Shown: positions 7,653-42,703 of the stretch, piece by piece
How the letters are laid out: each line of letters starts with the position of its first letter
Numbering within the stretch: the stretch's first letter is position 1
DNA from: Modestobacter sp. VKM Ac-2985
Lineage (GTDB): Bacteria; Actinomycetota; Actinomycetes; Mycobacteriales; Geodermatophilaceae
DNA: 64,000 nucleotides
Direction: 5' to 3'
NCBI RefSeq assembly: GCF_026967925.1
Contig: NZ_JAPVBI010000001.1
Coordinates: forward strand, 1,019,513 to 1,083,512
Translations under genes and position numbers: made by a program
The notes under the pieces: model-generated
What the model saw: only the letters and a program-made list of their open reading frames with translations
Databases searched by the model: none
Told to the model about the DNA's origin: nothing

Positions 7653-7999
7653 GCCGGGGCTCGCGCGTTGCCGCCAGTGGCCCGGTGACCCACCGGAACA
7701 CCGGGCAGGTCCAACCAGACGAGCAGGTCGGCCCGCTCCGTCAGCAGTGGGCGCACCGGTTCGTACTGCCACTCGGTGACCCAGGTCGGCTCCGCGGCGA
7801 AGCGCCGGGCGTCGTCCTCGAAGCTGGGGCGGGCTTCCCACCCCGGGCCGTGGAAGAGGGCGTCGATCTCCACGTGCGGCAGGTCCAGCAGCGCGCCGAT
7901 CCGGGCAGCCAGCGTGGTCCTCCCCGCTCCGGAGGTACCCACGACCAGCACTCGGGACGGACGCCGGGGGAGCGGGTCGTCCGGTCCCAGCAGCGTCAC
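7613..7999 (-). pseudogene. Truncated P-loop ATPase (adenylate-kinase-like), C-terminus lost
   Basis: The N-terminal 95 residues match small AAA/adenylate-kinase-like ATPases: RVLVVGTSGAGRTTLAARIG (Walker A; GRTT for the usual GKTT, so the catalytic Lys is Arg), LPHVEIDALFHGPGWE, WVTEWQY and DLLVWLDLP. Such proteins normally continue for another 70-90 residues. Here, after WLDLPG (near 7710), the frame continues as unrelated low-complexity sequence, straight into the terminator hairpin, and ends at 7613. Start shown is GTG 7999; an in-frame GTG at 8023 is also possible. Both the Walker A change and the lost C-terminus suggest a decaying gene. Confidence 0.6.
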
Positions 8000-8100
8000 C
8001 GGGCCACGGTGGCCACCACCCACCCGCGCGGCGGAGAGTGGCGACTACGCCGGGAGTGAACCGGCTGGACGGCGGCCTGCGGCTGCGCTGAGGTCGGGGC

Positions 8101-9078
8101 ATGCGACTCCTGGTCCTCGGCGGCACGCACTTCCTCGGCCGGCACGTCGTCACCGCTGCGCTGGAGCACGGCCACGAGGTGGCCACGTTCACCCGCGGCG
8201 TCTCCGGGGCGCCCGCGGCCGGGGCCCAGATGCTGATCGGTGACCGCGACGACCCGGTCGCCCTGCCGACGGCGCTGGACGGCTGGGTGCCGGAGCTGGT
8301 CGTCGACACCTCCTGCCAGACCCGCGCGGCGGCGGAGCACGCGGCGGCCGCGCTCGCCGACGTCGCCGGCTACGCCTTCGTCAGCAGCCTGAACGCCTAC
8401 CGGGGCTGGCCGCCCGGGCCGATCGCCGGTGAGCACGAGCCGACCTGGGACTCCGACGAGGACTCCTACGGGCCGGACAAGGCGCACGCCGAGCGGGTGC
8501 TGGGTGCGGCGCTGGGGGAGCGGTTCCTCACCGCGCGGGCCGGGCTGATCGTCGGGCCGCACGACCCGCTGTACCGGCTGGGCTGGTGGCTGGACCGGAT
8601 CGCCACCGGCGGCCGGGTCGTCGTCCCGGCGGAGGGGTTGGACCAGCCCATCGCCCTGGTCGACGCCCGGGACCTGGCGGGCTGGCTGGTCGAGTCAGTC
8701 GAGCAGGGCCGGTCCGGTGCGGTGAACGCCACCGGCCCGGCCGGGATGACGACCTTCGGTGGGCTGCTGGACACCTGCCGGGACGTGACCGGCGGCGACG
8801 CGGAGTGGCTGCCGGTGCCCGAGGCGGGGCTGCTGGCGGCCGGCGTCCAGGAGTGGAGCCACCTCCCGCTGTGGCTGGCAGCGAGCACCGCCCGCACCGC
8901 CTGGGACGTCGACACGACGCGTGCCCGGGAGCTCGGCCTGCCCTCCCGTCCGGTGTGCGACTCGATCGCCGACACCTGGACCTGGATGCAGACCGGCGAA
9001 CGTCCGGAGCCCCCGGCCGGCCGGCCACTGCCTGGCCTCCCTCTCGACCTGGAGCGGACCCTGCTGACTCGGGGTTGA
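8101..9078 (+). CDS. NAD-dependent epimerase/dehydratase family protein
   Basis: A 325-aa extended-SDR-like enzyme. It opens MRLLVLGGTHFLGRHVV, a Rossmann glycine motif of the GGTxFLGRH type, followed by FVSSLNAYRGW, the YGPDK sequence (YxxxK catalytic pair) and LTARAGLIVGPHD. The C-terminal half (INALVDARDL-like segment IALVDARDLAGWLV, then NATGPAGMTTFGGLL) resembles isoflavone-reductase-like or plastid mRNA-binding homologues in actinobacteria. Substrate unknown. It stands alone between the truncated ATPase and a converging methyltransferase; its stop lies within a hairpin. Confidence 0.85.
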   Translation: MRLLVLGGTHFLGRHVVTAALEHGHEVATFTRGVSGAPAAGAQMLIGDRDDPVALPTALDGWVPELVVDTSCQTRAAAEHAAAALADVAGYAFVSSLNAYRGWPPGPIAGEHEPTWDSDEDSYGPDKAHAERVLGAALGERFLTARAGLIVGPHDPLYRLGWWLDRIATGGRVVVPAEGLDQPIALVDARDLAGWLVESVEQGRSGAVNATGPAGMTTFGGLLDTCRDVTGGDAEWLPVPEAGLLAAGVQEWSHLPLWLAASTARTAWDVDTTRARELGLPSRPVCDSIADTWTWMQTGERPEPPAGRPLPGLPLDLERTLLTRG

Positions 9079-9115
9079 GCCGCACCGGCTGTGGGTCGAC
9101 CCGGGTGGCTCACTC
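9071..9115. terminator. Hairpin overlapping two converging stop codons
   Basis: GGGGTTGAGCCGC at 9071-9083 pairs imperfectly with GTGGCTCACTCC at 9105-9116; the centre holds GGTCGACC. Both flanking stop codons lie in the arms. The left arm has the same GGTTGAGCC motif as the element at 7579-7652. Confidence 0.45.
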
Positions 9116-9745
9116 CAGCCGGCGGAGCCGCACCACCTCGTCGGCGTCGTGGTGGTCGTGCTCGCCGGCCGGCCGAGCCTGGGCGCCGGCCAGGACGACG
9201 TCCCACTCCCGCAGGTCCAGGTCGGCGAGCACGTCGGCGGCGGTGGCGAAGCGGTCCGCGCCCCACACGGCGGCGCGCTGCTCGTCGTACCCGTGGCCGA
9301 CCCACAACAGCGTGCCGCCCGGGGCGACGGCGGCGGCCAGCCGGGGCACCAGCGCGTGGCGCACCGCGGCCTCCGGGTGCAGGAAGTGTGCGGTGACCAG
9401 GTCGAACGCCGCAGCGGCCGGCTGCCAGGTGGCGACGTCGCCCTGCACCCACGTGACCTGGTCACCGAGCCCGGCGGCCGCCGCCTGGGTGGCACCCCGG
9501 TCCAGGGCCGTCTGCGACCAGTCCAGGCCGGTCACCTGCCAGCCGCGGGAGGCGAGCCACAGCGTGTCGCCGCCCTCGCCGCAGCCGACGTCCAGGGCTC
9601 GCCCCAGCGGCAGGTCGGCGGCCTGCGCGGCGAGGGTCGGGTTGACCCGGCCGCTCCAGAGGGCCTCCTGGGCGGCGTAGCGCTCCTCCCAGGAGGCGTG
9701 GTCGGAGCCGGTGTCGGTGAGCTGTTGCTGCTGGTGGTCGTGCAC
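9110..9745 (-). CDS. Class I SAM-dependent methyltransferase
   Basis: A 211-aa soluble enzyme. Motif I is ALDVGCGEGGDTLWLA, the acidic motif II is GLDWS, and motif IV/post-I is WVQGDVATW followed by FDLVTAHFLHP. The N-terminus (SWEERYAAQEALWSGRVNPTL) is typical of the Tellurite-resistance/thiopurine-type small methyltransferases of actinobacteria. It starts 9 nt after the stop of the thioredoxin-reductase-like gene, so the two are almost surely co-transcribed. Substrate unknown; a role in detoxifying small thiol- or metalloid-type compounds would fit the partner but is inference. Confidence 0.9.
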   Translation of the reverse strand: MHDHQQQQLTDTGSDHASWEERYAAQEALWSGRVNPTLAAQAADLPLGRALDVGCGEGGDTLWLASRGWQVTGLDWSQTALDRGATQAAAAGLGDQVTWVQGDVATWQPAAAAFDLVTAHFLHPEAAVRHALVPRLAAAVAPGGTLLWVGHGYDEQRAAVWGADRFATAADVLADLDLREWDVVLAGAQARPAGEHDHHDADEVVRLRRLE

Positions 9746-9754
9746 CGTTCCCCC

Positions 9755-10768
9755 TCAGATCCCGTGCCGGCGGTCGCCGAGCACCTGGTCGCACAGCTCC
9801 CGCTCGACGGCGGGTGAGAAGACCCGGCGTCCGGCCACGGCCCGGCGGGTGTCCTCCATGATCAGGTCGGCGTTGACCGCCGCACCGGCGGTCAGCCCGG
9901 CCGCGGCCGAGCTGATCACCTGGGCCTTGATGTCGGTGACGTTCCCGGCCGCCCACACCCCCGGGACGGCGGTCGCCCCGGTCGCGTCCACCGGCACCCC
10001 GCTGCCCATCACCAGCTCGCCCATCCGCTGCTCGACCACCTCGAGCCCGAGGGACTCCAGGACGCCGGCCCGCGCGGTGAACCGCGGGGCCACCACCAGG
10101 GCGTCGCGGGCGATCACCGTGCCGTCGGCCAGCCGGACCCCGGTGAGCCTCCCGTCGGCGGTCTCCAGGCCGACGACCTCGCCGACGACCACGCTGATGC
10201 CCCGCGCGGCGAGCTGCTCCCACTCCTCCTCGGTCGGCTGCGGGCCGGTGTGCAGGAAGAGGGTGAGGTCGGCGGTCCACTGCCGCCACATCAGCACCTG
10301 GTGCACGCCGAGGGGGCTGGTCGCCAGGACGCCGACCGCCTGGTCGCGCACCTCCCAGCCGTGGCAGTACGGGCAGTGCAGGACGTCGCTGCCCCACAGC
10401 TCGCGCACCCCCGGGACGTCGGGCAGCTCGTCGACCAGCCCGGTGGTCACCAGCAGCCGACGGGCGTGCACCGACCGCCCGTCGGCCAGCCGCACCTCGA
10501 AGCCGCCCTCGGCCGGGGCGGCGGAGGTGACGTCGCCGTCGGTGAACTCCCCGCCGTAGCCGGTCACCTCGCTGCGCCCGATCGCCAGCAGCTCGCGCGG
10601 CGGGATGCCCTCCCGCCCCAGGTAGTTGTGCGCGTGCGTGGCGGGGGCGTTGCGGGGCGCTCCGCCGTCCACCACCAGCACCGATCGGCGGGCCCGGCTG
10701 AGCGCCAGTGCACCGCTCAGGCCGGCGGCGCCACCGCCGACGACCACCACGTCGTACTCCGTCTCCAC
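9755..10768 (-). CDS. FAD-dependent pyridine nucleotide-disulphide oxidoreductase, thioredoxin reductase-like
   Basis: A 337-aa flavoprotein. The FAD site is VVVGGGAAGLSGALAL at residues 8-23, the redox pair is HCPYCHGWE (CxxC), and the second FAD motif is GVWAAGNVTDIKAQVISSAAAG. This is the low-molecular-weight thioredoxin-reductase fold, but the NADPH-binding region (GVLATSPLGVHQVLMWRQW) lacks a clear GxGxxA, so the reductant or partner may differ from canonical TrxB. No thioredoxin gene is adjacent; a methyltransferase follows in the same operon. Confidence 0.88.
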   Translation of the reverse strand: METEYDVVVVGGGAAGLSGALALSRARRSVLVVDGGAPRNAPATHAHNYLGREGIPPRELLAIGRSEVTGYGGEFTDGDVTSAAPAEGGFEVRLADGRSVHARRLLVTTGLVDELPDVPGVRELWGSDVLHCPYCHGWEVRDQAVGVLATSPLGVHQVLMWRQWTADLTLFLHTGPQPTEEEWEQLAARGISVVVGEVVGLETADGRLTGVRLADGTVIARDALVVAPRFTARAGVLESLGLEVVEQRMGELVMGSGVPVDATGATAVPGVWAAGNVTDIKAQVISSAAAGLTAGAAVNADLIMEDTRRAVAGRRVFSPAVERELCDQVLGDRRHGI

Positions 10769-10787
10769 CGTGCGCTCCTCTGCTCGG

Positions 10788-10816
10788 ACGGCGGGTCACC
10801 GGGATGGTGACCCGCC
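10788..10816 (-). terminator. Hairpin between tauE-type gene and the oxidoreductase
   Basis: A perfect 12-bp stem (10788-10799 with 10805-10816) and 5-nt loop lie 20-48 nt upstream of the oxidoreductase start and about 64 nt past the exporter stop. It could end exporter transcription or, being close to the next gene, act as an operator. Confidence 0.5.
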
Positions 10817-10859
10817 GGGTCCGACAGTGCGCCGGGAGAACGTCTCGCGGCAAGAATCG

Positions 10860-10874
10860 TTGCCGCTACGGCAA
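10860..10874 (-). terminator. Short hairpin after tauE-type gene
   Basis: A perfect 6-bp stem, TTGCCG-CTA-CGGCAA, starts 5 nt after the stop of the exporter gene on the minus strand. Confidence 0.4.
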
Positions 10875-10879
10875 AGAGG

Positions 10880-11890
10880 TCAGGAGTGCAGGCGGCCCAC
10901 CGGCACGCCGTCGGCGTCGACCGGCGCCACCTGGTTCGGGTGCGCGGTGCGTTGCGCCCGGGCTGCCCGCTCCTGCTCGGCCAGCTGCTCCGCCTCGGCG
11001 GCCAGCGCCTCGGCCGCCTCCGCCGCGCGCTCCCTGCGGTACTCGCGGAAGGACCAGACCACCGCCGCCGCCCAGGTCGCGTAGACGACCGCCAGGACGA
11101 CGTACCGGACCGGGTCGCTGGCGCCGACCCAGTCGCTGCTGAGCAGGCTCGTCGCGTTGGTGGAGACGATCATGCCGCCGACCCCGGCGCCGAGCAGCCG
11201 CGGCGGGACGAAGCGGACCAGCCAGGCGGCCAGCGGCGCGGCGACCAGGCCGCCGGCCAGCAGGCCGAGCACCCAGAAGGCGTTGATCCCCTGGCTGCCG
11301 AGGGCGAAGAGGAAGCCCGCGCTCGCAGCGAGGGAGACCAGGAACTCCGAGGTGTCGATCGAGCCGATCGTCTTGCGCGGCTCCATCCGGCCGCTGGCCA
11401 GGATGGCCGGGGTGCTGACCGGGCCCCAGCCGCCACCGCCGGTGGCGTCGATGAAGCCGGCGGTCAGGCCGAGGGGGGCGAGGAACCGGGCGCGCATCGG
11501 CTTGCCCAGCTGGCGCTTGTCGATGCCGCGCAGGGTGAAGCGGGCCAGCAGGTAGAGGCCCAGGCCGAGCAGGATCAGTGACATCACCGGCCCGGCGACG
11601 GCGGTGGAGATGTTCGACAGCACGGTCGCCCCGGCGAAGGCGCCGATCGCGCCCGGGACACCGATCTTGGCGACGACCTTCCAGTCGACGTTGCCGAACT
11701 TCCAGTGCGAGAGACCCGAGGCGAGGTTGGTGCCGATCTCGGCCAGGTGCACCGTGGCCGAGGCGGCGGCCGGGTTGGTGCCGATGGCGAGCAGCAGCGT
11801 CGTGGAGGTGACGCCGTAGCCCATGCCCAGGCTGCCGTCGACGAGCTGGGCGCCGAGGCCCGCGAGGGCGAGCAGGATCAGGGTCTTCAC
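10880..11890 (-). CDS. TauE/SafE-family sulfite/anion exporter
   Basis: A 336-aa polytopic membrane protein with about eight helices, a duplicated TauE/SafE domain and the family pattern LGMGYGVTSTTLLLAIG (first repeat) and DATGGGGWGPVSTPAILASG (second repeat). A charged C-terminal tail (REYRRERAAEAAEALAAEAEQLAEQ) is probably a coiled-coil in the cytosol. These proteins export sulfite, sulfoacetate or related anions. The Cys-containing leader peptide 90 nt upstream supports a sulfur-related job and cysteine-dependent control. Confidence 0.9.
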   Translation of the reverse strand: MKTLILLALAGLGAQLVDGSLGMGYGVTSTTLLLAIGTNPAAASATVHLAEIGTNLASGLSHWKFGNVDWKVVAKIGVPGAIGAFAGATVLSNISTAVAGPVMSLILLGLGLYLLARFTLRGIDKRQLGKPMRARFLAPLGLTAGFIDATGGGGWGPVSTPAILASGRMEPRKTIGSIDTSEFLVSLAASAGFLFALGSQGINAFWVLGLLAGGLVAAPLAAWLVRFVPPRLLGAGVGGMIVSTNATSLLSSDWVGASDPVRYVVLAVVYATWAAAVVWSFREYRRERAAEAAEALAAEAEQLAEQERAARAQRTAHPNQVAPVDADGVPVGRLHS

Positions 11891-31473: not shown

Positions 31474-31546
31474 GGGGCTGTGGCGCAGCTGGTAGCGCAC
31501 CACACTGGCAGTGTGGGGGTCAGGGGTTCGAGTCCCCTCAGCTCCA
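31474..31546 (+). tRNA. tRNA-Ala (anticodon GGC)
   Basis: A 73-nt cloverleaf. The acceptor arm GGGGCTG pairs with CAGCTCC and includes the G3-U70 identity pair; the D-arm is GCGC...GCGC; the anticodon arm CCACA-CTGGCAG-TGTGG has anticodon GGC; the T-arm is AGGGG-TTCGAGT-CCCCT. The discriminator is A and CCA is not encoded. It is the left edge of the island and the likely integration site of the element whose broken integrase follows. Confidence 0.95.
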
Positions 31547-31557
31547 CCCCGATCACC

Positions 31558-31584
31558 AGGCCGTTCCCCTTCGGGGAGCGGCCT
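31558..31584 (+). terminator. Terminator after tRNA-Ala
   Basis: A 12-bp stem (31558-31569 with 31573-31584, one G-U) closed by a C-TTC-G type loop lies 11 nt after the tRNA. Confidence 0.65.
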
Positions 31585-31589
31585 GAGTC

Positions 31590-32190
31590 GTCTCTGGTTG
31601 CAATTTGCCCACCCTCACCTGGCAGCAGCAGCAGGGCGCCCATGCGGTCGGCAGCCTCGCGCGCGAGCGCCGGCATGACGTGGCTGTAGATGTCCATCGT
31701 GGTGCGCATCTGGGTGTGGCCGAGCAGCTCCATGACCACCCGCGGGGTGGACGTGCTCGGCGAGCAACAGCGTCGCGGCGGTGTGCCGGCCGTCGTGCAG
31801 CCGAACGTGTCGGACACCGGCCGTCTGCAGGAGCCGGGTCCAGTCGTCGTAGTCGGTCTTCCTGTGGATCGGCCTGCCGTTGGGCTGGGCGAAGACCAGG
31901 TCCTCGTCGTGCCACTCGGAGCCGGCCAGCATCCGCTCGCCGAGCTGTGCGGCTTTATGCCGGTGCAGCTCGGCGACGAGAGGTAGCGGGAGCGCCACGG
32001 TGCGCTGGCTCTTGGGCTCCTCGTAGATCAGTCCGCCACCGCGGACGCGATGGATGCTCTGCCGGACCGAGAGCGTGTTGTTCAGCAGGTTGACGTCCTT
32101 CCACTTCAGCGCCGGGGCCTCGGAGTGCCGTAGCCCGAGGGCAAAAGCCATAGTCCAGCGGGCGGAATTGCGGACGGAAGTGCTGCACGG
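31590..32190 (-). pseudogene. Tyrosine recombinase/integrase, 5'-truncated and frameshifted
   Basis: The catalytic domain is recognisable in two frames. Frame one starts near 32190 (RNSARWTMAFALGLRHSE, first catalytic Arg) and reaches RHVRLHDGRHTAATLLLAEHVHP (HxxR). The frame then shifts near 31740-31750 and continues RVVMELLGHTQMRTTMDIYSHVMPAL (His and Tyr nucleophile). Every catalytic residue is still encoded, but the N-terminal DNA-binding half is missing at the IS3 junction and no own stop is found before the tRNA. The element can no longer move with this enzyme. Confidence 0.8.
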
Positions 32191-32211
32191 ATCGGTGACA
32201 GGTTCGATCAG

Positions 32212-32430
32212 GCGGCCTGAGCGGCCTGAGCGGCCTGAGCGTGGGTGCGATGGTCTCGTACTCGATGAGCGCGAGTCGATCGAGGGCGTTCTGGCGGCGC
32301 CGGCGGTGGTAAGTCAGTTCGATCGAGGTGACGATCGCGATCCGCAGCTCTTGTCGAGTGCGCCAGTGTCAGCGGTCGAGGACGCTTCTCTGCGACAGTG
32401 AAAAGGTGTTCTCATGACGGCGTTGTCCCC
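32212..32430 (-). pseudogene. IS3-family transposase (OrfB) C-terminal relic
   Basis: On the minus strand the sequence reads DNAVM, then in another frame NTFSLSQRSVLDR-stop-HWRTRQELRIAIVTSIELTYHRRRRQNALDRLALIEYETIAPTL, the C-terminal end of IS3-type OrfB (DDE domain and basic tail). It carries a frame change and an in-frame TGA. The end is padded by three copies of GCGGCCTGA (32212-32238). It abuts the truncated integrase, so insertion of this IS probably removed the integrase N-terminus. Confidence 0.7.
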
Positions 32431-33031
32431 GGCTGCGCCTACTCGGCCAGCTGGTGCCGGTCGAGGACGTGGACAAATCATCGGCTATGGAATTGCGGCC
32501 CTCGATCTGAATGCACGGCGCAGCCAGCCACATCGGCACCGTGAGCGTGGTGTCGGGAGACGGGTTGTCGAGGGCTGCGACCGCGAGCCGGGACTTGCGG
32601 AGCTCGCCGTCGGGACGCCTGAGGACCCCGACGATGAGCTTGTCGACAGCTTCGAGAATGCGGTCGGCTCGCCGACCTGGTTCGCCCAGCAAGGCTGAAG
32701 GGAGATGCGGCGACTCGTAGCAGTTTGACGCGATGCCTGACCGTGCTCCCGGGTGCCGGCGTCTGGTTCATGGGCCGATGCCACCTCCGGATCATGGCGC
32801 CCTTGGAGTCGCAGCGCTTAGACGGCGGTGTCGGCAAGGCGATGAAGCGCCGTGCGTTTGGCCTGGACGGCGCGTACCGGTACTGCCAAGCTGCTGTCCT
32901 CGCCTGCGGGGAACGGAGGAGGTCACGCTGTTGCGCCCGACAGCCAGAAGCGCTGACCGTAAGACGGTCCGGCGGCTCTGCATGACGGTTCTGCGGGCGC
33001 TAATCAACCAGTACGGAGCGGGGGCGATAGC
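32431..33031. other. 600-bp gap with no supportable gene
   Basis: Open frames here are short, overlapping and show no family pattern. The stretch looks like decayed sequence between the IS relic and the 718-aa gene. The promoter of the latter must lie in its right part; GGGGGCG at 33019-33025 may serve as its ribosome-binding site. Confidence 0.5.
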
Positions 33032-35188
33032 GTGACGGATCGGGCTCTGATCGTGCACGATGGCCGGCTGCCGGGAGGCGCGGGCGCCGTGGTTCTTGCA
33101 CGCTTGCTCGAGCGAGCGGACAGTCGCGTGGTGACCGTCCAGCACCTGGTGACCGGGCAGGATGCGCGTTACTTCTGGACAACAGAGATCGGCCGCCTGC
33201 TCGAAGAAGCGGACAAGCACACGAAGCTCATCCTGTTCGGCGTAACGTATTACGATCTTGAGGACCACCTGGCGAGCGAGGCGCTGGCGGAACTCGACAG
33301 GGCCTACGGCGAGCTGGAGATTTGGTCGCATCGCTGGCCGGACGGCTATTCGCGACCATCGCGGAACGTCAATATTCCGCCGCAGGACATCGTCTACGGG
33401 CCACTCGGATACGAGCTTACGCCGCCTGAGAAGCGCCTGCTTCGGCTGTCGCTGGTGGCCGCCCGCGCAGTGCCGACGGAGGGACGCGATGACGACGTCG
33501 CACTGGTCAGTGCCTTGACTCAGTGGCTTGAGGTGGATCCCACAAACTGGGACCGACTAGTGCGCGAGCCAGACCTCGCCGCGCTGCTTGCCGAAGCGCG
33601 GGCCGCCCACACGCGGGCTAGTCGGGTCGCCGACGCCACGGTGATCGAAGAGCACACCGACTTCATAGACTTGAATATTGCGGGTCGACACGTCAGCCAC
33701 GAGATTGCCATCATCGATGACGTTTTGGCCGATCGCCGGGCGGCCAAAAACACTGTCGTCGTCGCCTGGCTTGGGACCGATCGCGTCCTGCTGTGTCGCC
33801 GCGATCCGCAGCAAGAGTTGCCGTCGCTGCGCTGGCTCATCGACAACCGCCTCCAGGGTGCCGTTCCGGTGGCGCTGCGCGGCGAGGCGTATGGCCCCCA
33901 GGACTCCGTCTACTTTCGGCTGACTGACGTCGGGGTGAAGTCGGCGCTACGACCCGAGATGCGTGAGCTCGCAAAGCAGCTCGCCGCGGCCTCGACCGGT
34001 GGCCGATATCTGACCGCAGCGGTCGCCCGCGACGTTGCGGGCATTGCGAACCGGGTCTTCCGGTCGATTGACCTGACCGGCCAGTTCACCCGGAGTCATG
34101 ATCCGCAGATCGAGGTCGTGGCGGCCGACCTCTACGACTTGATCCACACCAGCAGTCGAACCGGCGAGCGGCGCCATACGCTGACCATGCCGATTCGGGT
34201 CTATGGGCCAGCGGCTATCGCCTTCCTCTACATGGACGGCGGCTACAACTCGGATAAAGCCGAGCGTCTGCTCGAGGGGGCCATGGTTGGTCTCAGTGGT
34301 CGGGGGGTGGCCTGGCTCGGGCTGCCGCCGCAGTCCGGACGCCTGCGCCTGGACATCCGGCCAATTCTACAAGCGGATGAAGATATCGCCGCAGTCCGGG
34401 AAGCGCTCCGTGCACCCCGGATAAAGTCGATCGCCTCGGAAGGGCTGGTGGCGACCGACTCCGTCATCGGCAAGGTGCTGTCGAATGTCCGGCTCGACCG
34501 TCTGGTGACCATTGCCGACTCGGAAACGATTGGGCCGTCCGTTGCCCATGCACTGACCCTCCTGGCGGCAGGCGCTGCCCTGCGCGAGGGAGCAGCTAAG
34601 GCTTCGATCTTGGACTTGTTCGCCGGTAGTGGCGTCGCGAACCGGCTGCTTTCGAACGCCGGCTTTGATGTCACCTCAGTCGACCTGTATGTGTCCGCCA
34701 GCTCTGTGGGTCTCGACTTTTCAAGTTCACCCAGTCTCTGGCTACGGGCCGACGCTCGAGCTGTGGTACATCAGAGCCACCCACTGATCGAGCAGCAGTT
34801 CGATGTGATTGGACTAGACCCGCCACATTCCGAACTGGTGGAGCTGTTGTTCGGAGCGGAGCAGGGCGAATCGCTCGTCCGTCTGTGTGCTCGCCGGTCT
34901 GATCTGCTGGTCTTGTACCAGGGACATAGCACCCAGCGTGGCCGGCTCGACTTGGTAATGAACGGGCTCGCCGAGGCCGGATGGTGTCACCGGTCGATTT
35001 TGCTTGTCGAGGAGGAATTGATTGTCGTTGCCACCACGGAGCGGACAAAGGCGGATGACTTCCAGCTGCTGGTCCAGCGCATCGTCGACGATGTGCAGGT
35101 GTGGTTCATTCGGCATCAGATGCCAGACGTGCACGCCGTTGAGCTTGCCATAGGTCACGACCCTGTTGGTAAGTTCGAGCTGGCGTGA
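33032..35188 (+). CDS. Island protein with C-terminal SAM-methyltransferase-like domain, unknown function
   Basis: A 718-aa soluble protein starting at GTG. The C-terminal third has a class I methyltransferase outline: motif I ILDLFAGSGVANRLLSNAGF (about residue 527), acidic VDLYVS, and motif IV-like GLDPPHS (about 594), akin to DPPY/DPPF of nucleic-acid methyltransferases. The N-terminus (ALIVHDGRLPGGAGAVVLARLL, then LILFGVTYYD and LEIWSHRW) resembles the order of strands in DHH phosphoesterases, but the metal-binding Asp/His motifs are not evident, so that link is weak. The middle is unassigned. A kinase-like gene follows after 52 bp. I cannot name the family. Confidence 0.7.
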   Translation: MTDRALIVHDGRLPGGAGAVVLARLLERADSRVVTVQHLVTGQDARYFWTTEIGRLLEEADKHTKLILFGVTYYDLEDHLASEALAELDRAYGELEIWSHRWPDGYSRPSRNVNIPPQDIVYGPLGYELTPPEKRLLRLSLVAARAVPTEGRDDDVALVSALTQWLEVDPTNWDRLVREPDLAALLAEARAAHTRASRVADATVIEEHTDFIDLNIAGRHVSHEIAIIDDVLADRRAAKNTVVVAWLGTDRVLLCRRDPQQELPSLRWLIDNRLQGAVPVALRGEAYGPQDSVYFRLTDVGVKSALRPEMRELAKQLAAASTGGRYLTAAVARDVAGIANRVFRSIDLTGQFTRSHDPQIEVVAADLYDLIHTSSRTGERRHTLTMPIRVYGPAAIAFLYMDGGYNSDKAERLLEGAMVGLSGRGVAWLGLPPQSGRLRLDIRPILQADEDIAAVREALRAPRIKSIASEGLVATDSVIGKVLSNVRLDRLVTIADSETIGPSVAHALTLLAAGAALREGAAKASILDLFAGSGVANRLLSNAGFDVTSVDLYVSASSVGLDFSSSPSLWLRADARAVVHQSHPLIEQQFDVIGLDPPHSELVELLFGAEQGESLVRLCARRSDLLVLYQGHSTQRGRLDLVMNGLAEAGWCHRSILLVEEELIVVATTERTKADDFQLLVQRIVDDVQVWFIRHQMPDVHAVELAIGHDPVGKFELA

Positions 35189-35240
35189 TCACCATATGTG
35201 ATGAGTCATTCGCAATCTCCGGGCTAGAAGGCGCGACCAG

Positions 35241-36104
35241 ATGACCGCGATTCGGCACGTGGCAGCGGTCGATGCCCTCGGTGAGTTCCTGCCTTTGGGT
35301 GGCGCCGTCGGATCCCAGCACGCTGACCTGCTGATTGGGTACACGGGACAGGATCTAGCATCGGCCGGGCCGCCCGCCTGCTGGCCTGGAGAGTCGCTTC
35401 TGAAACGGGTGGGTGTCAGGCGCGGCCTGAGCCGAGCGGAGTGCCTGGCCATAGGCGACGGGTACCTCGAGTACCGGCACGCATTGGCGCGGCAAACGAC
35501 TTGGCAGATGCCTCGCCTCGCCGAGGTGGTCGCCCATGGCGGTGACCAGGAGTGGCACCTGCTGCTGATCGAGCAGTACGTTCGGGGTGAGTCGCTGTCG
35601 GCGTTTCTGGGGAGTACGCGTCACTCCGCCGAGTACCGACAGGCAGCGCTAGCAGCGGTGCTGCGCAACGTGCTGAGTCATCCAGAGACGAACCGGGCCA
35701 TCTCGGTGAACGGCCATCGGCTCCGGCTGGTCGGACAGGGCGTCGACCTGAAGCCATCTAATGTGGTCGTCGCCACGATCGGCTCGCCGTACTTGGTCGA
35801 CCAGTTCCCGCCACTGCTCTTGGACGGCAGCGGCGCGGTGCGGTTCCGGTGGGAGCGGCTGCACACGTTCAGTGAGGAGAAGCTCAAGATCCTGTGCTTT
35901 ACCAAGGCAGGAGCCATGCTCCGCCTGCTCCGACTGCTGCAACTCAGTGCGCGGAGCGTGGAGGAGGCGGCACGGCTGACGCGTGGATTCCTCGCCACCG
36001 TCCAAGCCGTCGGCCCACGACAGACCGACTGGCGTTTCTTGTGGCAGGAGGTCCAGGCCAATTTCCCGACGCTGCGGCGGTTGTATGCCGGGGCAACAAG
36101 TTGA
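35241..36104 (+). CDS. Protein-kinase-like island protein, unknown function
   Basis: A 287-aa soluble protein. EWHLLLIEQYVRGESLSAFL (about residues 104-122) looks like the hinge of a protein kinase, and GQGVDLKPSNVVV (about 166-178) matches the catalytic-loop pattern D-x-K-P-x-N, with HR of HRD lost. A clear DFG is missing (VDQFPPLLLDGSG is the nearest) and the glycine-rich loop is unclear (LPLGGAVGSQHADLL?). It may be a degenerate kinase or another member of that fold. It follows the 718-aa gene by 52 bp on the same strand and is probably co-transcribed. Confidence 0.6.
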   Translation: MTAIRHVAAVDALGEFLPLGGAVGSQHADLLIGYTGQDLASAGPPACWPGESLLKRVGVRRGLSRAECLAIGDGYLEYRHALARQTTWQMPRLAEVVAHGGDQEWHLLLIEQYVRGESLSAFLGSTRHSAEYRQAALAAVLRNVLSHPETNRAISVNGHRLRLVGQGVDLKPSNVVVATIGSPYLVDQFPPLLLDGSGAVRFRWERLHTFSEEKLKILCFTKAGAMLRLLRLLQLSARSVEEAARLTRGFLATVQAVGPRQTDWRFLWQEVQANFPTLRRLYAGATS

Positions 36105-36564
36105 CTGGATCGTTTAAAGTGGGTCAATGGCTGTCATGCCCGTACCGTTCGAACTCCACGCCGAACAGGCGAAGGGCTCGACAGTGCCGACTGTCGGGCC
36201 CGTCGTCGTTCCCACGTGATGCAGCCCGTCCACCCCGCTCCGGAGTAGGTTCCTCGGAACCTGCGGAGGTGTGGTCGAGCTCTGGGCGCCGCTGCGCGAC
36301 GTGATGGCGATGCAGCCCCTGGCGGGGGAACCTAAGGGCGCCGGGAAGTCCCGCTGCGCTGGCTGGTCAAAAAGGCGCTGAAGATGCGCCTTTCCCGCTT
36401 GGCGGTGGGGGAGGCGCGCCAAAGGAGTGCCGGTCCCGACGCGTCAGCCTGGACGGACACGGTCTGACTAGACTCGGACCGGCGAACCGCGCCCGACATC
36501 GAACGGGGACGGGTCGTGACAACTGCAGTATTGACCACCCCTGGGCCATCGCACCGGAGACTCC
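36105..36564. other. 460-bp gap with a terminator-like hairpin
   Basis: AAAGGCGC-TGAAGAT-GCGCCTTT (36371-36393) is a perfect 8-bp stem with an A-tract on one side and a T-tract on the other, fit for termination in either direction. A 30-codon frame at 36127-36219 (MAVMPVPFELHAEQAKGSTV...) is open but has no support. The promoter of the next gene should lie in 36400-36560. Confidence 0.55.
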
Positions 36565-37635
36565 TTGCTTACGCCGGACCACAGCCACCTGCGCAAGTAC
36601 TTGGCGACCCTGGGCGTGGCCATCGTTGCCGGCACGCTATCTCTAGCTGGCTTATTCTTCAGGCTTCAGCAAGACCTTCTAATTTCACAATCGCGTTTGG
36701 ACGAGACGACCAGCGTGGCACGGGAGGCCATCTTGGCGCGGCAGCGATACCTCGCGGTCGCCACCGACTGGCTTCCTTGGGTCGCGCTCATCGGAGTAGT
36801 GGTCGGCCTGGCACTGGCCGCCTACGGGCTTCTCGGATGGAATAAGCGTCAGCGGGTGGCGGATGAAGTGGAGGATCAGACTCGGGAGAGGGGGCGCCTA
36901 GAGCTCAAGGCCTTGACTGACGCTGAGAAGATGGACAAGATCGCGAAGGATGCCCAAGAGAGCGCTCAGGATGCCCGTCTGAGTGCGGGGAGTGTTGGGG
37001 ACGACGGAAGTAGTTCGGCTGGTGACGAGGCATCTCCTGATCCTAAGTCGGGCAAGGGGGAAGAGTCCCAGTTGGATGAGCCCCCCGCCTCTTCGGTCGT
37101 GATCGAGCAGTATTCTGAGCCGCGAATGTCTACTTCGTCGCGGCCAACAGCCGTATCGCTCACGATGAACGATCAAGATATTGATCGAGCGTCCCTGCAC
37201 CTTCGCATCGCCGAGATTGAACGCCGAATGGTCGATCGCCTTGTCCGGGCAGTCCCTGCCAAGATGAAGTTGGTGCCGAATATCAGTGTGCGATCTCAAG
37301 GTCGAGTTGCAGCGTTCGACGCGGTGGCCGTAGACGCGAAAACTATTCCTAGGTATCTGTTTGACGTTAAGTATGCGAGCAGTTCCAGGCACGCGCGCAA
37401 CGCCTTAATCAGCTCGGTGCGGCGATCGGCCGACTGGCCGCACTTGGATGATGCGACTCCCATGATCCTGCTGGTTGTGGAAGAGCTCGATCCAAAGTCA
37501 ATGAATTCACTGCAGGGCATCGCCCATGACTATCTTTCGAACCTGAACAGGCAAATTGGGCTGGTCATCTTCAGTGCCGATGAGGTGGAGTCCATGAGTG
37601 ACGATGAATTCGCCGAGCGACTGGGTCTTCGCTGA
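36565..37635 (+). CDS. Membrane-anchored protein with PD-(D/E)xK-like C-terminus
   Basis: A 356-aa protein starting at TTG with GGAG about 5 nt upstream. It has two helices (YLATLGVAIVAGTLSLAGLFF, about 12-32; WLPWVALIGVVVGLALAAYGLLGW, about 69-92), a charged linker with coiled-coil potential (about 93-135) and a disordered acidic segment (about 140-195). The C-terminal domain has IAEIERRMVDRLVRAVP, then AAFDAVAVDAKTIPRYLFDVKYASSS, where Asp of FDAV and DVK could form a PD-(D/E)xK nuclease site, plus ILLVVEEL and GLVIFSADE strands. I do not know the family; a membrane-bound effector nuclease is an inference from motif and neighbourhood. Confidence 0.6.
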   Translation: MLTPDHSHLRKYLATLGVAIVAGTLSLAGLFFRLQQDLLISQSRLDETTSVAREAILARQRYLAVATDWLPWVALIGVVVGLALAAYGLLGWNKRQRVADEVEDQTRERGRLELKALTDAEKMDKIAKDAQESAQDARLSAGSVGDDGSSSAGDEASPDPKSGKGEESQLDEPPASSVVIEQYSEPRMSTSSRPTAVSLTMNDQDIDRASLHLRIAEIERRMVDRLVRAVPAKMKLVPNISVRSQGRVAAFDAVAVDAKTIPRYLFDVKYASSSRHARNALISSVRRSADWPHLDDATPMILLVVEELDPKSMNSLQGIAHDYLSNLNRQIGLVIFSADEVESMSDDEFAERLGLR

Positions 37636-37955
37636 CTAGGATTGACGATCCAAAAGGCTTGGGGGCTGGCTCGCCAGCAACGATCTCCGCACTATGCAGC
37701 GAGTCAACCCTCAAGGCTCCTGGTTGTGGGCGGATGCCCCCCGGCCCCGAGGACTTCGAGCCGACCTGAACATCGATCTCGCGGAGGCGCTGGACCAGTG
37801 GGTTCGCGTCAAGGCCGAGCCTCGGCCGGCCCGGCGCAGACCCGAGAGTGCGTCCAAGTGCGTTCAGCACAGGTCACGCTGGTGCGGAGCACACGCGCGC
37901 TCGGCGCAGACTGGGTGGCGGCCTTCGATTGGCAACAGCGAAGCGCCAGTTGAGC
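37636..37955. other. 320-bp convergent gap, no gene seen
   Basis: Between the converging membrane gene and qatD. A small stem, GCTGGC-TC-GCCAGC (37665-37678), is a weak terminator candidate. Two open frames here are overlapping and show no family pattern. Confidence 0.5.
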
Positions 37956-38726
37956 CTAGTGCACCGGGAGAGTCGCGAGTAGGTCCGCGATGCGCTTCGG
38001 CAGTCGAGCGACAGCCCCTGACTTCGTCGAGATGTCCCGCAGGTTGCGATACGCGCGCTGCCTGACGACGGGTGGTGTCATCGCGCGAATGTGACTGATC
38101 CGGTCTTCCAGCGGATAAGTGTTCCCGGGCAGGCGCGCTTTGGTGCGCGCACGGGAACTCGGAAAATCGGTCTCAGGTAGCCAGCGGTCCTCGGGAATGC
38201 GTTCCAGGGCCTCGTCTGTCATCGCTGCGTTGACAGAGAAGTAGCAACCGGCCCCAGCGGCCCGCTCCACCTGATCCGGGTTGCCGCTGAACCAATGAAG
38301 GATGAGGCCGGGGTGAGGCCGTTTCTCGATTGCGTCCAACACTGGATCGATGCGCCCTGTGCTGTGCACGCTGATCAAGACCGGCTGATCCTGCAACTCG
38401 TCCAGAATCGACTCGAAGACCGCCTGCTGAGTCTTAATGCTTCCTCGTCGGTCCATCCCGACTTCGCCGACAACGGCAAAGTATGGATGAGCGCGACGAA
38501 AGGTTTCCGCCGAGTACTCTTCCAGGGCTGCCGGGAGGCCCGGATGTACTCCTAGCCCCCATGTGAGAGGGCGGTCTTGGCGCTGAACTACTTGGCGTGC
38601 CTCTTGCAGTGAGCGTGTCATCGCAAATATCACTGAGTCGCCGAGCGGGCGAATCTGTGCAGGTGTGACGTCATGCGCGATGTGTGCATGACAGTCGAGA
38701 GGTGGGAGGTCAAGGGAGTGGGACAT
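37956..38726 (-). CDS. qatD: QatD, TatD-like metal-dependent hydrolase
   Basis: A 256-aa TatD/amidohydrolase-fold enzyme with all metal-site segments: DCHAHI (HxH), GLGVHPG, VVGEVGMD (Glu), SVHSTG (His), LHWFSG (His) and ETDFP (Asp). TatD proteins are Mg2+-dependent DNases; in the QatABCD anti-phage system the TatD-like protein is an essential component. It is the last gene of the operon and its start overlaps the qatC stop by 17 bp. Confidence 0.88.
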   Translation of the reverse strand: MSHSLDLPPLDCHAHIAHDVTPAQIRPLGDSVIFAMTRSLQEARQVVQRQDRPLTWGLGVHPGLPAALEEYSAETFRRAHPYFAVVGEVGMDRRGSIKTQQAVFESILDELQDQPVLISVHSTGRIDPVLDAIEKRPHPGLILHWFSGNPDQVERAAGAGCYFSVNAAMTDEALERIPEDRWLPETDFPSSRARTKARLPGNTYPLEDRISHIRAMTPPVVRQRAYRNLRDISTKSGAVARLPKRIADLLATLPVH

Positions 38727-39972
38727 CGCTCAACTCCTTCCGTCCTCTCTCGCACAGACTGAGAACCTCATCGAGATCGATATCCGCGGGCCAAGCGGCG
38801 GAGGCGATGAGATCAACTTCGTCAACCGGTGAGGCCAGGGCTTCCTTGAGAGCGATCAGGTCCGACCGGCGTCGTGCGATCAGGGTTGTCCGTGCCTCGC
38901 CTGTGACTTCGTTGATCAAATAGGGCGTGTCATCCGCGACGCCAGCGGCGATAAAGGCGCCGCGTCGAACGATGCACGCGATGCAGAGTCCGCAGTTATG
39001 CGTAGCGTTCCCGCCAGTGAGTCGTCCACCGTCGAGTTTGCTGCATGACAGCGTCCGCGCGGCGCCCTCTTGGATGCCGGGCAGGTCGCTGTCGGCAGCC
39101 TTGCGGACGAGTTCCCCCTTGGTCAGCATGGCGTACGGATTGTGGATGGCGATGTTCAGGGAGAGTTCGTTAGTGAGGCGCTGAACTTGATAGAACGTCC
39201 ACGGGTGCGTTGACTTGGTTGACAGTGCTCCGCCGCGTGAGGCCTGCAGGGGCAGGTTGATGCTGGTGAAGCCGTTCTCGGGGACGATGACTTCACGAGC
39301 GCTCGTCCCGCTTGCTGCGGCGATAGCGAGAGCCATGAAAAGCAGTGACCTTGTTCGAGTGGAGGGCTCGCGCTTGGCGGCGGTCTGCGTGATCTGAAGC
39401 CGCGTCCAGGAGAACATCGGGACTCTGTGGCAGAACCACGCTTCGGCCAGGTTCTGGGCGTGCCGGACAGCGGTGGATGCATCTCGGTGCCCTACGTGGA
39501 GTCGGTGCGCCGCCGAAGCCGCATGGTCCACGGCGCCGGAGAATGAATCTAGCCCGCCGGACAGAAGCATGACGTCGCGCCGCTCGACCGGTACTTGTAC
39601 CTGACCAGGGGGGTCGACGCTTTGAACGGGCGTTAGTTCCCAGGTGTCTCCCGTAAGCCAAGCCAAGATGTCCATCACGGTGCGGCCTGGGTCGGACAGC
39701 CAGAGATCGGGTCGTCGCAAGTGCACCGTGAGGTGCAAGTCGCGGGAGAAATGGGTCGGCCTCGGGGCCAGGCGGTCGGTGACGTACGCCGCGACGGCGA
39801 TTCGCAGTAGATCGACCGCCTCGTCGGCTACGGCGCCGAAGCCATCGACGTACCAGCCGATGTCCGACTTCAGCGTGTCCGTTGATCCTGGATCGGGGGA
39901 CCAGGCGATCTGTTGTGCTGCCGGGTTGGCGGTGGTGGCACCCGAGGGCAGCAGTTCGACGGCGGTCATCAT
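38710..39972 (-). CDS. qatC: QatC, QueC-like enzyme of the Qat system
   Basis: A 420-aa protein with the PP-loop ATP pyrophosphatase signature MLLSGGLDSFSGAVD (about residues 134-148) and a QueC-type zinc site in NCGLCIACIVRRGAF (with CSKLDGG upstream). QueC makes preQ0, a 7-deazaguanine; whether QatC modifies protein, nucleotide or DNA is not settled here. The N-terminal 130 residues are Qat-specific. Start ATG 39972 overlaps the qatB stop (ATGA). Confidence 0.88.
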   Translation of the reverse strand: MMTAVELLPSGATTANPAAQQIAWSPDPGSTDTLKSDIGWYVDGFGAVADEAVDLLRIAVAAYVTDRLAPRPTHFSRDLHLTVHLRRPDLWLSDPGRTVMDILAWLTGDTWELTPVQSVDPPGQVQVPVERRDVMLLSGGLDSFSGAVDHAASAAHRLHVGHRDASTAVRHAQNLAEAWFCHRVPMFSWTRLQITQTAAKREPSTRTRSLLFMALAIAAASGTSAREVIVPENGFTSINLPLQASRGGALSTKSTHPWTFYQVQRLTNELSLNIAIHNPYAMLTKGELVRKAADSDLPGIQEGAARTLSCSKLDGGRLTGGNATHNCGLCIACIVRRGAFIAAGVADDTPYLINEVTGEARTTLIARRRSDLIALKEALASPVDEVDLIASAAWPADIDLDEVLSLCERGRKELSDVPLP

Positions 39973-40799
39973 GTCGTGCCCTTCAGTAGGCTGACGGCAT
40001 CTGCCGTCAGCCTGGTTGCCTTCTCGATGAAGGTCCTAGGCGAAAAGCGCCCCATTACTGCGAGGCGCGCCCCCTTGATCCGTCGCGCGATGTAGGGCTT
40101 CACGAACTGCTCGAACTTTCGTGTCGCTTGTGCGGAGAGTCCGTCGCGAGCCCGCTTCGACCTCAGTTCGACCAGGGCCGACCGGTAGACGAAGGCACTC
40201 AGGAACGTGCGCAGCACTTCCTCCTCGCTCAGGGGCGACTTAGCAGCCAGGACTTCCTTCATCGTCTCGTAGGCCGCCTTGCGGAGGGCCTCGTCATCCG
40301 GGTGCCCGGGAGCGCCGATGACGTCGTCCAGAATCCGCATGCACTGCTCTCGCACCGGAAGTGCCGAGAGTTCACGCAGGTTGAGGCCAAGATCATCGAG
40401 TGCGCTGGCATTGCCTTCTCGAAGGGCATACGCCCCAGCGATGGCGGCGGCTCCTCGGGCGGCCTGCTTCTGAAGCGATCTCGGCGAGCGACTTCGGCCC
40501 GTACTGCCGGATGAGCCACTGCGAACCGACCCGCTCCCGCCGCCGCGCTCATGGCGCTTGGAGGCGAGCAGGTCATTGAGGTTGAAGGAGGGACTCTGCC
40601 GTGGGCGGCGAAGCGCTGTGTCCTGCTTCAGGAAGGCGTTAGCGATGGCCTGAGCCACGGCTTGGGCATGGTCGTTTGGTCGGGAGCCGTCGTCGGATGC
40701 GGGGCTGGATTTACCGCTGCTGTCAAGGTCAGCGAACGCATCATGGGCGTCTGCCCAAGAAGCCGATCCACTACCTCCGTACGCCCCCGACGTGCCCAT
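39969..40799 (-). CDS. qatB: QatB, Qat system protein of unknown function
   Basis: A 276-aa protein opening MGTSGAYGGSGSASWADAHDAF, the glycine/serine-rich start typical of QatB, with a low-complexity linker (GSGSVRSGSSGSTGRSRS, about 88-105) and a helical C-terminal half (NLRELSALPVREQCMRILDDVIG to GRFSPRTFIEKATRLTADAV). Only its position and this pattern support the name. It overlaps qatA by one base (TAATG) and qatC by 4. Confidence 0.82.
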   Translation of the reverse strand: MGTSGAYGGSGSASWADAHDAFADLDSSGKSSPASDDGSRPNDHAQAVAQAIANAFLKQDTALRRPRQSPSFNLNDLLASKRHERGGGSGSVRSGSSGSTGRSRSPRSLQKQAARGAAAIAGAYALREGNASALDDLGLNLRELSALPVREQCMRILDDVIGAPGHPDDEALRKAAYETMKEVLAAKSPLSEEEVLRTFLSAFVYRSALVELRSKRARDGLSAQATRKFEQFVKPYIARRIKGARLAVMGRFSPRTFIEKATRLTADAVSLLKGTT

Positions 40800-42565
40800 T
40801 ACCGGTCGCTGAGCATCTGCTCGGCAGCCGTCCGCACCATCGGGGACAGGTGTTGGTCGCGCTGGATCTCACGGAGCAGACCCTTCACCTCCGGATGCGG
40901 GCTGTCACCGAGGGCGGCGACATCCACAGGCTGAAGATGCGACCAGGCGTGGTTCCGCACCCCAGCGACGACATCGGCCACGACAGAGGGGACCTTGTTC
41001 GCTACCTGCACTGCTGCTTCGACGGCCCACTCAGGCGACGAAAGCCTTGGCACTCTGACCAGAAGGGTCTGTACGAGCGCTCGCTGTTCCGACAGGTCCC
41101 GCTGCACGGCCTTCTCGATCGCTTCTTCCCTGACCACGTCCGAGTCGCTGAGCAACTCATCGAGGAGACGCAGAACCTCATCTGGCAACGACCCACCTGC
41201 GCTGAAGGCCGTGAAGGTAGCGGCCAGGCTGAGGTAGGCATCGAAGCCCCTTGCGAGTCCATCAAGCGACGGTTCCGACCCAGCCCACTCGCGGGACTCC
41301 GTACTCACGCCGTCCGGTTGGGGCGCGTCTTCCTCCTGGCGACCCCACGCCTCCCATCGAGGCAGCAGGTCCAGTCGCTCCTGCGTCGAGAGGCCAACCA
41401 AGACCTCGAAGTCTGCTGGGTAGCGATCCTCCAAGATGTACAACTTGAGGACGGCCCCAGGGCTGATCTCCACGCCACGGCTCTTGGCGATGGCCTCTCT
41501 CACGCCCCAGGCATTGAGGAACCTCTTGATGGCGCGGGGACTACTCCACTTGTCCCCAGCCAGGCCGCGCGCCAGTTGCGAAGCCAGTTGCAGGTCCTCA
41601 GAAGTCGGCTGATGGCAACCCATCGCGTACGGGCCTACAAGGTAGGGGCTCTCATTACGAATCCGGCGCGCCTGCACGTGGTCAACGAGCGCGCTGTACT
41701 CGCCGCGCGATGGTGCGCTGCGTGCCGACAACAGTAGGGCGATGTAGGTCTCCGCGTCGTCCGGTGACAGCCGAGGCAGCGTGACCGGCAACTGGACGAT
41801 CTTCTCCAGGTACCGCTCAGCGAACCCACCTCGTCCTGCGGCGTCCACGCTGGCGGCGATCGCGTTCCGGACCATCTCCTGGTCAGCCGCCAAGACGAAG
41901 GCCATCTTGGGGACTGACAGGAACAACTTGATTGCTTCCAGGGTGGCCATGACCGCAGGCGGCAGGCAGCGATCCAAGTCATCGACCAGCACGACGACCT
42001 TCTCGACGTCCTCCAACTCTTCCATGAGTTCCTCGAAGGCCGCCTTGAACCCGGCCATGGTGCGTGGTTGCTCGTCCTCTGGTCCCGGGGTGAGCGCCTC
42101 TACCCACGCCTGCGGGTCGGGCTGCATGGTGAGGGCAGTGTTGGCGACGACTGTGCCGACCTTGACCCATGCAATCCGCTTGAGGAGGCCACGAATCTTC
42201 GTCACGTGCCCCTCGGCCGGGCGCCCTTGGGCGATCTCGCTCAGGATCTGGCCGATCAACGTGCCTCGAACGTCACCTTCTTCGTCGTACTCCCACGGGT
42301 CGGCGCGGACCACGATGACCCCGGGAGTGTCGTCAAGCCGCTGGCCGATCAATTCAAGCGCCGTCGACTTGCCGCCGCCCCAAGGGGACTGGATGGCGAT
42401 GGTGACGGGATCGAGGTCGTCTGCCGATAGGGCCGTGATCACCGCCTCGGCGACCGAGTGGAAGCCCAAGAGGTCCAGCGTGGCTGGGTTGTCGTTCCAC
42501 AGTCGGACAGTTCCGCTTGTAGACACCTGATGCACCCCGTTCACTCGCTCGAACGATCCCGACAC
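40799..42565 (-). CDS. qatA: QatA, KAP-family P-loop ATPase of the Qat system
   Basis: A 588-aa KAP NTPase. Walker A is SPWGGGKSTALELI (about residues 60-73), Walker B and the KAP signature are VVVLVDDLDRCLP (about 193-205), with the AIKLFLSVPKMAFVLAADQE sensor strand after. Most KAP proteins have membrane helices in the insert; the segment IAWVKVGTVVANTALTM here is only weakly hydrophobic. It is the first gene of the qatABCD operon and likely supplies the ATP-driven sensing or assembly step. Confidence 0.9.
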   Translation of the reverse strand: MSGSFERVNGVHQVSTSGTVRLWNDNPATLDLLGFHSVAEAVITALSADDLDPVTIAIQSPWGGGKSTALELIGQRLDDTPGVIVVRADPWEYDEEGDVRGTLIGQILSEIAQGRPAEGHVTKIRGLLKRIAWVKVGTVVANTALTMQPDPQAWVEALTPGPEDEQPRTMAGFKAAFEELMEELEDVEKVVVLVDDLDRCLPPAVMATLEAIKLFLSVPKMAFVLAADQEMVRNAIAASVDAAGRGGFAERYLEKIVQLPVTLPRLSPDDAETYIALLLSARSAPSRGEYSALVDHVQARRIRNESPYLVGPYAMGCHQPTSEDLQLASQLARGLAGDKWSSPRAIKRFLNAWGVREAIAKSRGVEISPGAVLKLYILEDRYPADFEVLVGLSTQERLDLLPRWEAWGRQEEDAPQPDGVSTESREWAGSEPSLDGLARGFDAYLSLAATFTAFSAGGSLPDEVLRLLDELLSDSDVVREEAIEKAVQRDLSEQRALVQTLLVRVPRLSSPEWAVEAAVQVANKVPSVVADVVAGVRNHAWSHLQPVDVAALGDSPHPEVKGLLREIQRDQHLSPMVRTAAEQMLSDR

Positions 42566-42703
42566 GCACGGTAGGGCACCCGTCTGACGCTTCTAGGGGA
42601 AGAGGAGTCGTGTGACACGTATACCGGCCGCTGCCACTAACCCTGGTCGTCTGCTCCGGACGCCAGCGCGGTCCTTTCCCCTCGGCAAAGGTCCGGCGGC
42701 CGG

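Follow-up and report, generated by a model that had tools for sequence, protein, structure and literature searches.

The gene pair and its two proteins

A stretch of 64,000 nt (the window) from the 4.7 Mb genome of Modestobacter sp. VKM Ac-2985 (contig NZ_JAPVBI010000001.1, positions 1,019,513 to 1,083,512) carries two adjacent plus-strand genes that specify a methyltransferase-like and a kinase-like protein. Gene 1 (nt 33032–35188) encodes a 718-aa fusion protein and gene 2 (nt 35241–36104) a 287-aa Ser/Thr protein-kinase-like protein. Open reading frame (ORF) calling confirmed both frames and the 52 bp gap between them (nt 35189–35240), as described in a first-pass annotation made from the sequence alone. 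The same annotation assigned neither protein to a known family, and no significant match in Pfam, NCBIfam or PADLOC was found for either. A scan of nt 32700–38000 found no terminator-like sites, and no description of a system built from the two genes was found in the accessible parts of the literature searched, including those of PMC12839542 and PMC10853773. The pair is not a chance arrangement of ORFs, because gene 1 has 14 other homologues, the same gene order occurs in a second genome, that of Geodermatophilus sp. DF01-2 from the same family, and synonymous change greatly exceeds non-synonymous change in both genes. Between the window and DF01-2 pairs, the non-synonymous distances are 0.27 (methyltransferase) and 0.58 (kinase), and the synonymous distances 2.3 and 2.7, both saturated.

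The C-terminal half of the gene 1 protein is likely to be an S-adenosylmethionine (SAM)-dependent, nucleic-acid methyltransferase, judging from its motifs and from an AlphaFold model (predicted local distance difference test score, pLDDT, 87.8; predicted template modelling score, pTM, 0.82) in which residues 462–672 (nt 34415–35047) adopt a Rossmann methyltransferase fold. The DLFAGSG and DPPH sequences pointed out in the first-pass annotation lie at residues 528–534 (nt 34613–34633; motif I, by analogy the SAM-binding motif) and 596–599 (nt 34817–34828; motif IV), and are kept as DLF[AS]GSG and DPPH in 15/15 aligned family members. SAM motif I and the Rossmann fold of SAM-dependent amino-methyltransferases are both present. 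Motif IV of those enzymes is defined as [DNS]PP[Y/F/W], and the gene 1 family has H in the aromatic position. The best profile matches were DUF6218 (E 0.0066, below the cut-off), a tRNA methyltransferase model (E 0.013) and MTase_II (E 0.021). Structure searches with this half returned many Rossmann enzymes, including the archaeal m4(2)C synthase 8vyd, and singled out no one housekeeping enzyme. The RsmD family was matched at E 0.1 or better by 9 of the 15 family members, the window protein scoring 11.4 of 24 bits, far under the Pfam cut-off. In the fold of this domain and in the order of its motifs (I to IV), gene 1 resembles RsmD-family enzymes and the m4(2)C synthase; it differs from them in its DPPH motif, its large N-terminal extension and its island location.

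Some 500 residues ahead of this domain had been described as impossible to place. That remains so for residues 345–460 (nt 34064–34411), a conserved linking region (GYN..K.E..LEG) with invariant columns G404, Y405, N406, K409, E411, E415 and G416 and no placed fold, and no longer for the N-terminal part of about 320 residues (residues 1–320, nt 33032–33991). Here, the AlphaFold model and structure search predict, over residues 4–319, the fold of DHH/DHHA1 phosphoesterases such as RecJ, NrnA and PAP phosphatase. The gene 1 family differs from these in its fusion to a methyltransferase, in a profile similarity that does not rise above shuffled controls, and in its metal motifs: neither DxD nor DHH occurs in any of the 13 members with an N-terminus. 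Among 29 comparator DHH proteins (extracted from 30 loci, and including one wrong-strand 107-aa fragment, L060), DHH was found in 28/29 and DxD in 28/29, the latter count being circular, as the comparators were chosen by a motif-I pattern, and the former not. No match to PF01368 at E 0.1 or better was found in the 15 family members. The absence of both metal motifs in 13/13 makes it probable, if the predicted fold is right, that the N-terminal part is a nuclease that has lost its activity and now serves as a reader. H9 is kept in 13/13 members, and H100, at the old DHH site, in those having that region except three Nocardia proteins, which carry N there and have D at the position of G70. The Nocardia changes suggest that the dead site either continues to drift or has been repurposed. 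A GPQDA-like stretch is also conserved (RGEAYGPQDS in the window protein), with G288 and Q290 invariant.

Gene 2 likely encodes a divergent Ser/Thr protein kinase, as far as its sequence can tell. The D-x-K-P-x-N loop reported earlier was located at D169-L-K-P-S-N174 (nt 35745–35762). The earlier statement that there is no DFG is literally true, the site reading DQF; even so, D187 (nt 35799–35801; context LVDQFPP), 18 residues past D169, sits at the DFG position and is a candidate metal-binding Asp. The spacing matches that of D166 and D184 in protein kinase A. Both the loop and the later Asp are kept in 3/3 members of the gene 2 family, and the combined pattern arose in 1 of 200,000 shuffles of the gene 2 protein. 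Among 1,933 ORFs, it occurred in six, each of them a copy of gene 2 or of its DF01-2 homologue. A profile of gene 2 aligned with 27 Pkinase domains from genomes of the same phylum (27 of 30 loci extracted and kept) with a probability of 95.1% and a score of 60.1, against a maximum of 24.9 in 60 shuffles. The score against 18 aminoglycoside phosphotransferase (APH) domains was 25.5, with shuffles reaching 22.8; this set came from 30 loci: after the exclusion of nine weak or partial ones, 20 of the remaining 21 were extracted, and a motif filter kept 18. No Pfam match, including PF00069, was obtained at E 1 or better for the three family members. The best profile matches were a YccS model (E 0.00097, 17 of 471 bits) and the defence kinase PD-T4-6 (E 0.0059, residues 89–187). 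The match to PD-T4-6 is weak and covers 88 of the 433 model positions, and that kinase is not known to have a methyltransferase partner.

Homologues and conservation of the pair

Protein searches, which relied on shared 5-residue words and scored about 8000 candidates, detected 14 methyltransferase homologues besides the window protein, some of them in Nocardia, Amycolatopsis and Saccharibacteria, and two kinase homologues besides gene 2, namely P0018 of DF01-2 (46% identity) and P0017 (79%). Genomic context could be read for one of the 14 other methyltransferase homologues, P0003 in DF01-2. There, on contig NZ_SPQN01000022.1 (locus L008), the gene order is that of the window (nt 7800–9932, then 9944–10855), with an 11 bp gap between the genes, so that adjacency, the lack of which had been proposed as refuting the pair, holds in both genomes that can be read. 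The window and DF01-2 proteins share 67% identity for the methyltransferase and 46% for the kinase. The guanine-plus-cytosine (GC) content of the DF01-2 pair is 0.55–0.60 (nt 8001–11000), under that of most of its surroundings, and its neighbours encode a conjugation coupling protein, a replication-relaxation protein, a DNA N6/N4 methylase, ParB-like proteins and an MzaB-like ATPase. The last is a HATPase protein (L008:16629–18443) that matches the MzaB model at E 1.3e-15.

The distribution is patchy. A scan of 112 family genomes detected the methyltransferase in two, namely DF01-2 and the genome of the window itself. Among 394 genomes of the class, 397 of the order and 59 relatives, the window's own genome alone gave the full-length protein; two short core matches were returned besides in the class scan and three in the order scan, both of which scored two candidates per genome in most rows listed. 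Scans for the kinase in 23 genomes of the genus and 394 of the class likewise gave the window's own genome alone. The window methyltransferase protein had no match in 72,556 plasmid and 50,697 phage records.

The tRNA-Ala island

The gene pair lies in a variable, low-GC island (nt 31549–42697; GC 0.62–0.65, against about 0.70 or more outside) bounded on the left by a plus-strand tRNA-Ala gene (GGC, nt 31474–31548; ARAGORN), which is also present in sister species, and on the right by a flank that is conserved in sister species from nt 42697. The qatABCD genes recognised earlier in the same island were identified by PADLOC on the minus strand (nt 37956–42565), in the order qatD, qatC, qatB and qatA (E 3.8e-29, 3.4e-63, 3.4e-5 and 1e-62). 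They form a neighbouring defence system and are divergent, with NCBIfam bit scores below the cut-offs (QatA 250/600, QatC 245/280, QatD 116/230, QatB 23/100). Two other descriptions of the neighbourhood could not be confirmed. The supposed insertion sequence relic at nt 32478–32834 matched no Pfam family, and a piece of a phage-type (tyrosine) integrase was found at nt 31615–32151 (minus strand; PF00589, E 3.2e-13). The gene downstream, described as nuclease-like, starts 460 bp after gene 2 (nt 36565–37635, plus strand) and encodes a 356-aa protein with hydrophobic windows near residues 12–34 and 62–93 and a C-terminal D...DVK pattern (residues 252–269); it has no significant family in Pfam, NCBIfam or PADLOC, and the pattern is loose, matching at four places in the protein.

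Ten loci of sister species were compared, one of which ends at 2 kb with its contig. The left flank was present in 10/10, tRNA-Ala downstream of kdpC in 9/9 scanned, and the right flank within the stretch in 6/10; neither the gene pair nor qat was found in the ten stretches at E 1e-5. PADLOC was applied to six of the sister intervals, using 10 of 42 listed ORFs, picked by eye partly for a defence-like look. One interval carries SIR2, HerA and PD-Lambda-2_C (L023:2174–7051), and another PycC and PycTM, a Pycsar cyclase with its membrane effector (L028:12925–15079); of the other four, two gave weaker matches and two none. The figure of two intervals in six is no unbiased rate, because the 10 ORFs were hand-picked. 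A 4-kb version of the hotspot is filled by one ORF of 1188 aa (L024:13928–17491), with only a short, weak PADLOC match. The tRNA-Ala site is a hotspot able to carry defence genes, and it is this position that supports a defence role for the pair.

A kinase-switched methyltransferase module as a possible reading

The observations that bear on function are the gene order in two genera, the conserved methyltransferase motifs, the missing DHH motifs, the kinase-like profile and the hotspot position. They are best explained by a kinase-switched nucleic-acid methyltransferase module that has a pseudo-DHH/DHHA1 reader, the folds being predicted ones, and that follows a logic like that of Pgl; we put the probability of this at roughly 35%, the highest among the readings considered. 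In such a module, the pseudo-DHH/DHHA1 part would use its DHHA1-like side to bind either a nucleotide signal or nucleic acid in single-stranded form, and the C-terminal domain, by analogy with [DNS]PP[aromatic] enzymes, would methylate an exocyclic base amine. Upon an infection signal, the kinase might phosphorylate the methyltransferase or a nearby partner, much as the accessible part of PMC4365076 proposes that PglW activates PglX, and the outcome would be protection against phage or other invading DNA. A tentative and rather doubtful proposal goes further: the pair would be an anti-phage system not described before, a dead DHH/DHHA1 nuclease sensing the invader for a nucleic-acid methyltransferase and a dedicated divergent kinase doing the switching, so that a Pgl-like logic would have been assembled from unrelated parts in two genes.

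The likeness to Pgl/BREX type 2 (PglX and PglW) is that one module combines a methyltransferase with a protein kinase; the kinase activity of PglW is essential for phage resistance, according to the same portion of PMC4365076. The available text of PMC12839542 describes PglW as a protein of many parts (nuclease, two kinase and DNA-binding), whereas the gene 2 kinase is a 287-aa protein standing alone. PADLOC scanning of seven island proteins returned no Pgl or Brx model among its matches. The pair is Pgl-like in its working at most, since neither protein fits Pgl by the models tested.

Several results weigh against a kinase-switched module. Chief among them is that no more than two of the 14 other methyltransferase homologues can be paired with a kinase of the gene 2 type, so that the kinase may have been added locally and the pairing itself may be local. 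No qat genes were found in the 20.9 kb stretch that includes the DF01-2 pair (best E 0.23), and that contig resembles a conjugative element. The AlphaFold model of gene 2 was poor (pLDDT 42) and was discarded; K55 is a candidate for the ATP-binding lysine of the N-lobe, and the Pkinase profile alignment begins only at residue 58. A base amine as target is uncertain because DPPH has H and not an aromatic residue. The hhalign comparison of the N-terminal profile with DHH proteins scored 16.5, not above 40 column shuffles (up to 21.3), so that DHH is claimed here as a fold and not as demonstrated descent; the correspondence by which the GPQDA-like stretch seems to stand in place of the GGGH of DHHA1 comes from this same non-significant alignment (16.5 versus 21.3). 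Finally, the hotspot argument is one of guilt by association. The modification and sensing pair for defence suggested in the first-pass annotation is plausible, given a tRNA-Ala hotspot with qat (and SIR2-HerA/PD-Lambda-2 or Pycsar in 2/6 sister intervals), a patchy occurrence (2/112 family genomes) and adjacency in a second genus; the count of two other kinases versus 14 other methyltransferase homologues speaks against obligate pairing.

The same imbalance speaks for a rival reading, in which the methyltransferase would be stand-alone cargo of mobile elements, marking element DNA for anti-restriction or self-marking, with the kinase a lineage-specific neighbour. The DF01-2 copy is surrounded by genes for a coupling protein, a replication-relaxation protein, ParB and a DNA N6/N4 methylase; this setting and the integrase piece and low GC of the window fit such a role, but the two genes have stayed close together and in the same order across two genera, at identities of 67% and 46%, and the plasmid and phage records (72,556 and 50,697) yielded no match; this account has a real, if minor, chance of being right. 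The imbalance also tells against a toxin‒antitoxin-like pair, in which a harmful methyltransferase is held in check by the kinase: the two genes are closely spaced, and PglX is toxic without PglZ (in the accessible part of PMC4365076), yet a kinase can be matched to at most two of the 14 other homologues, which makes such a pair unlikely.

Resemblance of the methyltransferase to rRNA enzymes (RsmD in 9/15 members at E 0.1 or better, and the 8vyd fold) could instead indicate self-protection, in which marks on rRNA or tRNA would guard against an antibiotic or toxin and the kinase would modify the toxic agent. This is improbable, as gene 2 is much closer to protein kinases (60.1) than to aminoglycoside phosphotransferases (25.5, shuffles to 22.8). 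It is very unlikely that the 356-aa membrane-type protein downstream serves as the nuclease of a restriction-modification-like trio: the D...DVK pattern, hydrophobic N-terminus and distance of 460 bp would suit one, but the protein is without a significant family, its loose pattern matches at four places, and no counterpart was found in the 20.9 kb stretch that includes the DF01-2 pair (best E 0.046). Least credible is a DHH part that is still an active phosphoesterase with altered ligands. The retained H9 (13/13), H100 in all but the three Nocardia proteins, and the Nocardia D at the G70 position would speak for it, but both DxD aspartates are absent in 13/13, against the RecJ-like ligands of D. 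radiodurans (H34, D38, D40, D95, H121 and D171) given in the accessible portion of PMC11229311.

If the kinase-switched methyltransferase reading is correct, bacterial immunity would have evolved the control of a methyltransferase by a kinase on more than one occasion, and a modification enzyme would have taken over a pseudo-nuclease fold to serve as its reader. The pair is compact, with two genes and obvious point mutations to make in each part, and would also provide a simpler test of the long-debated way in which the Pgl kinase switches its methyltransferase.
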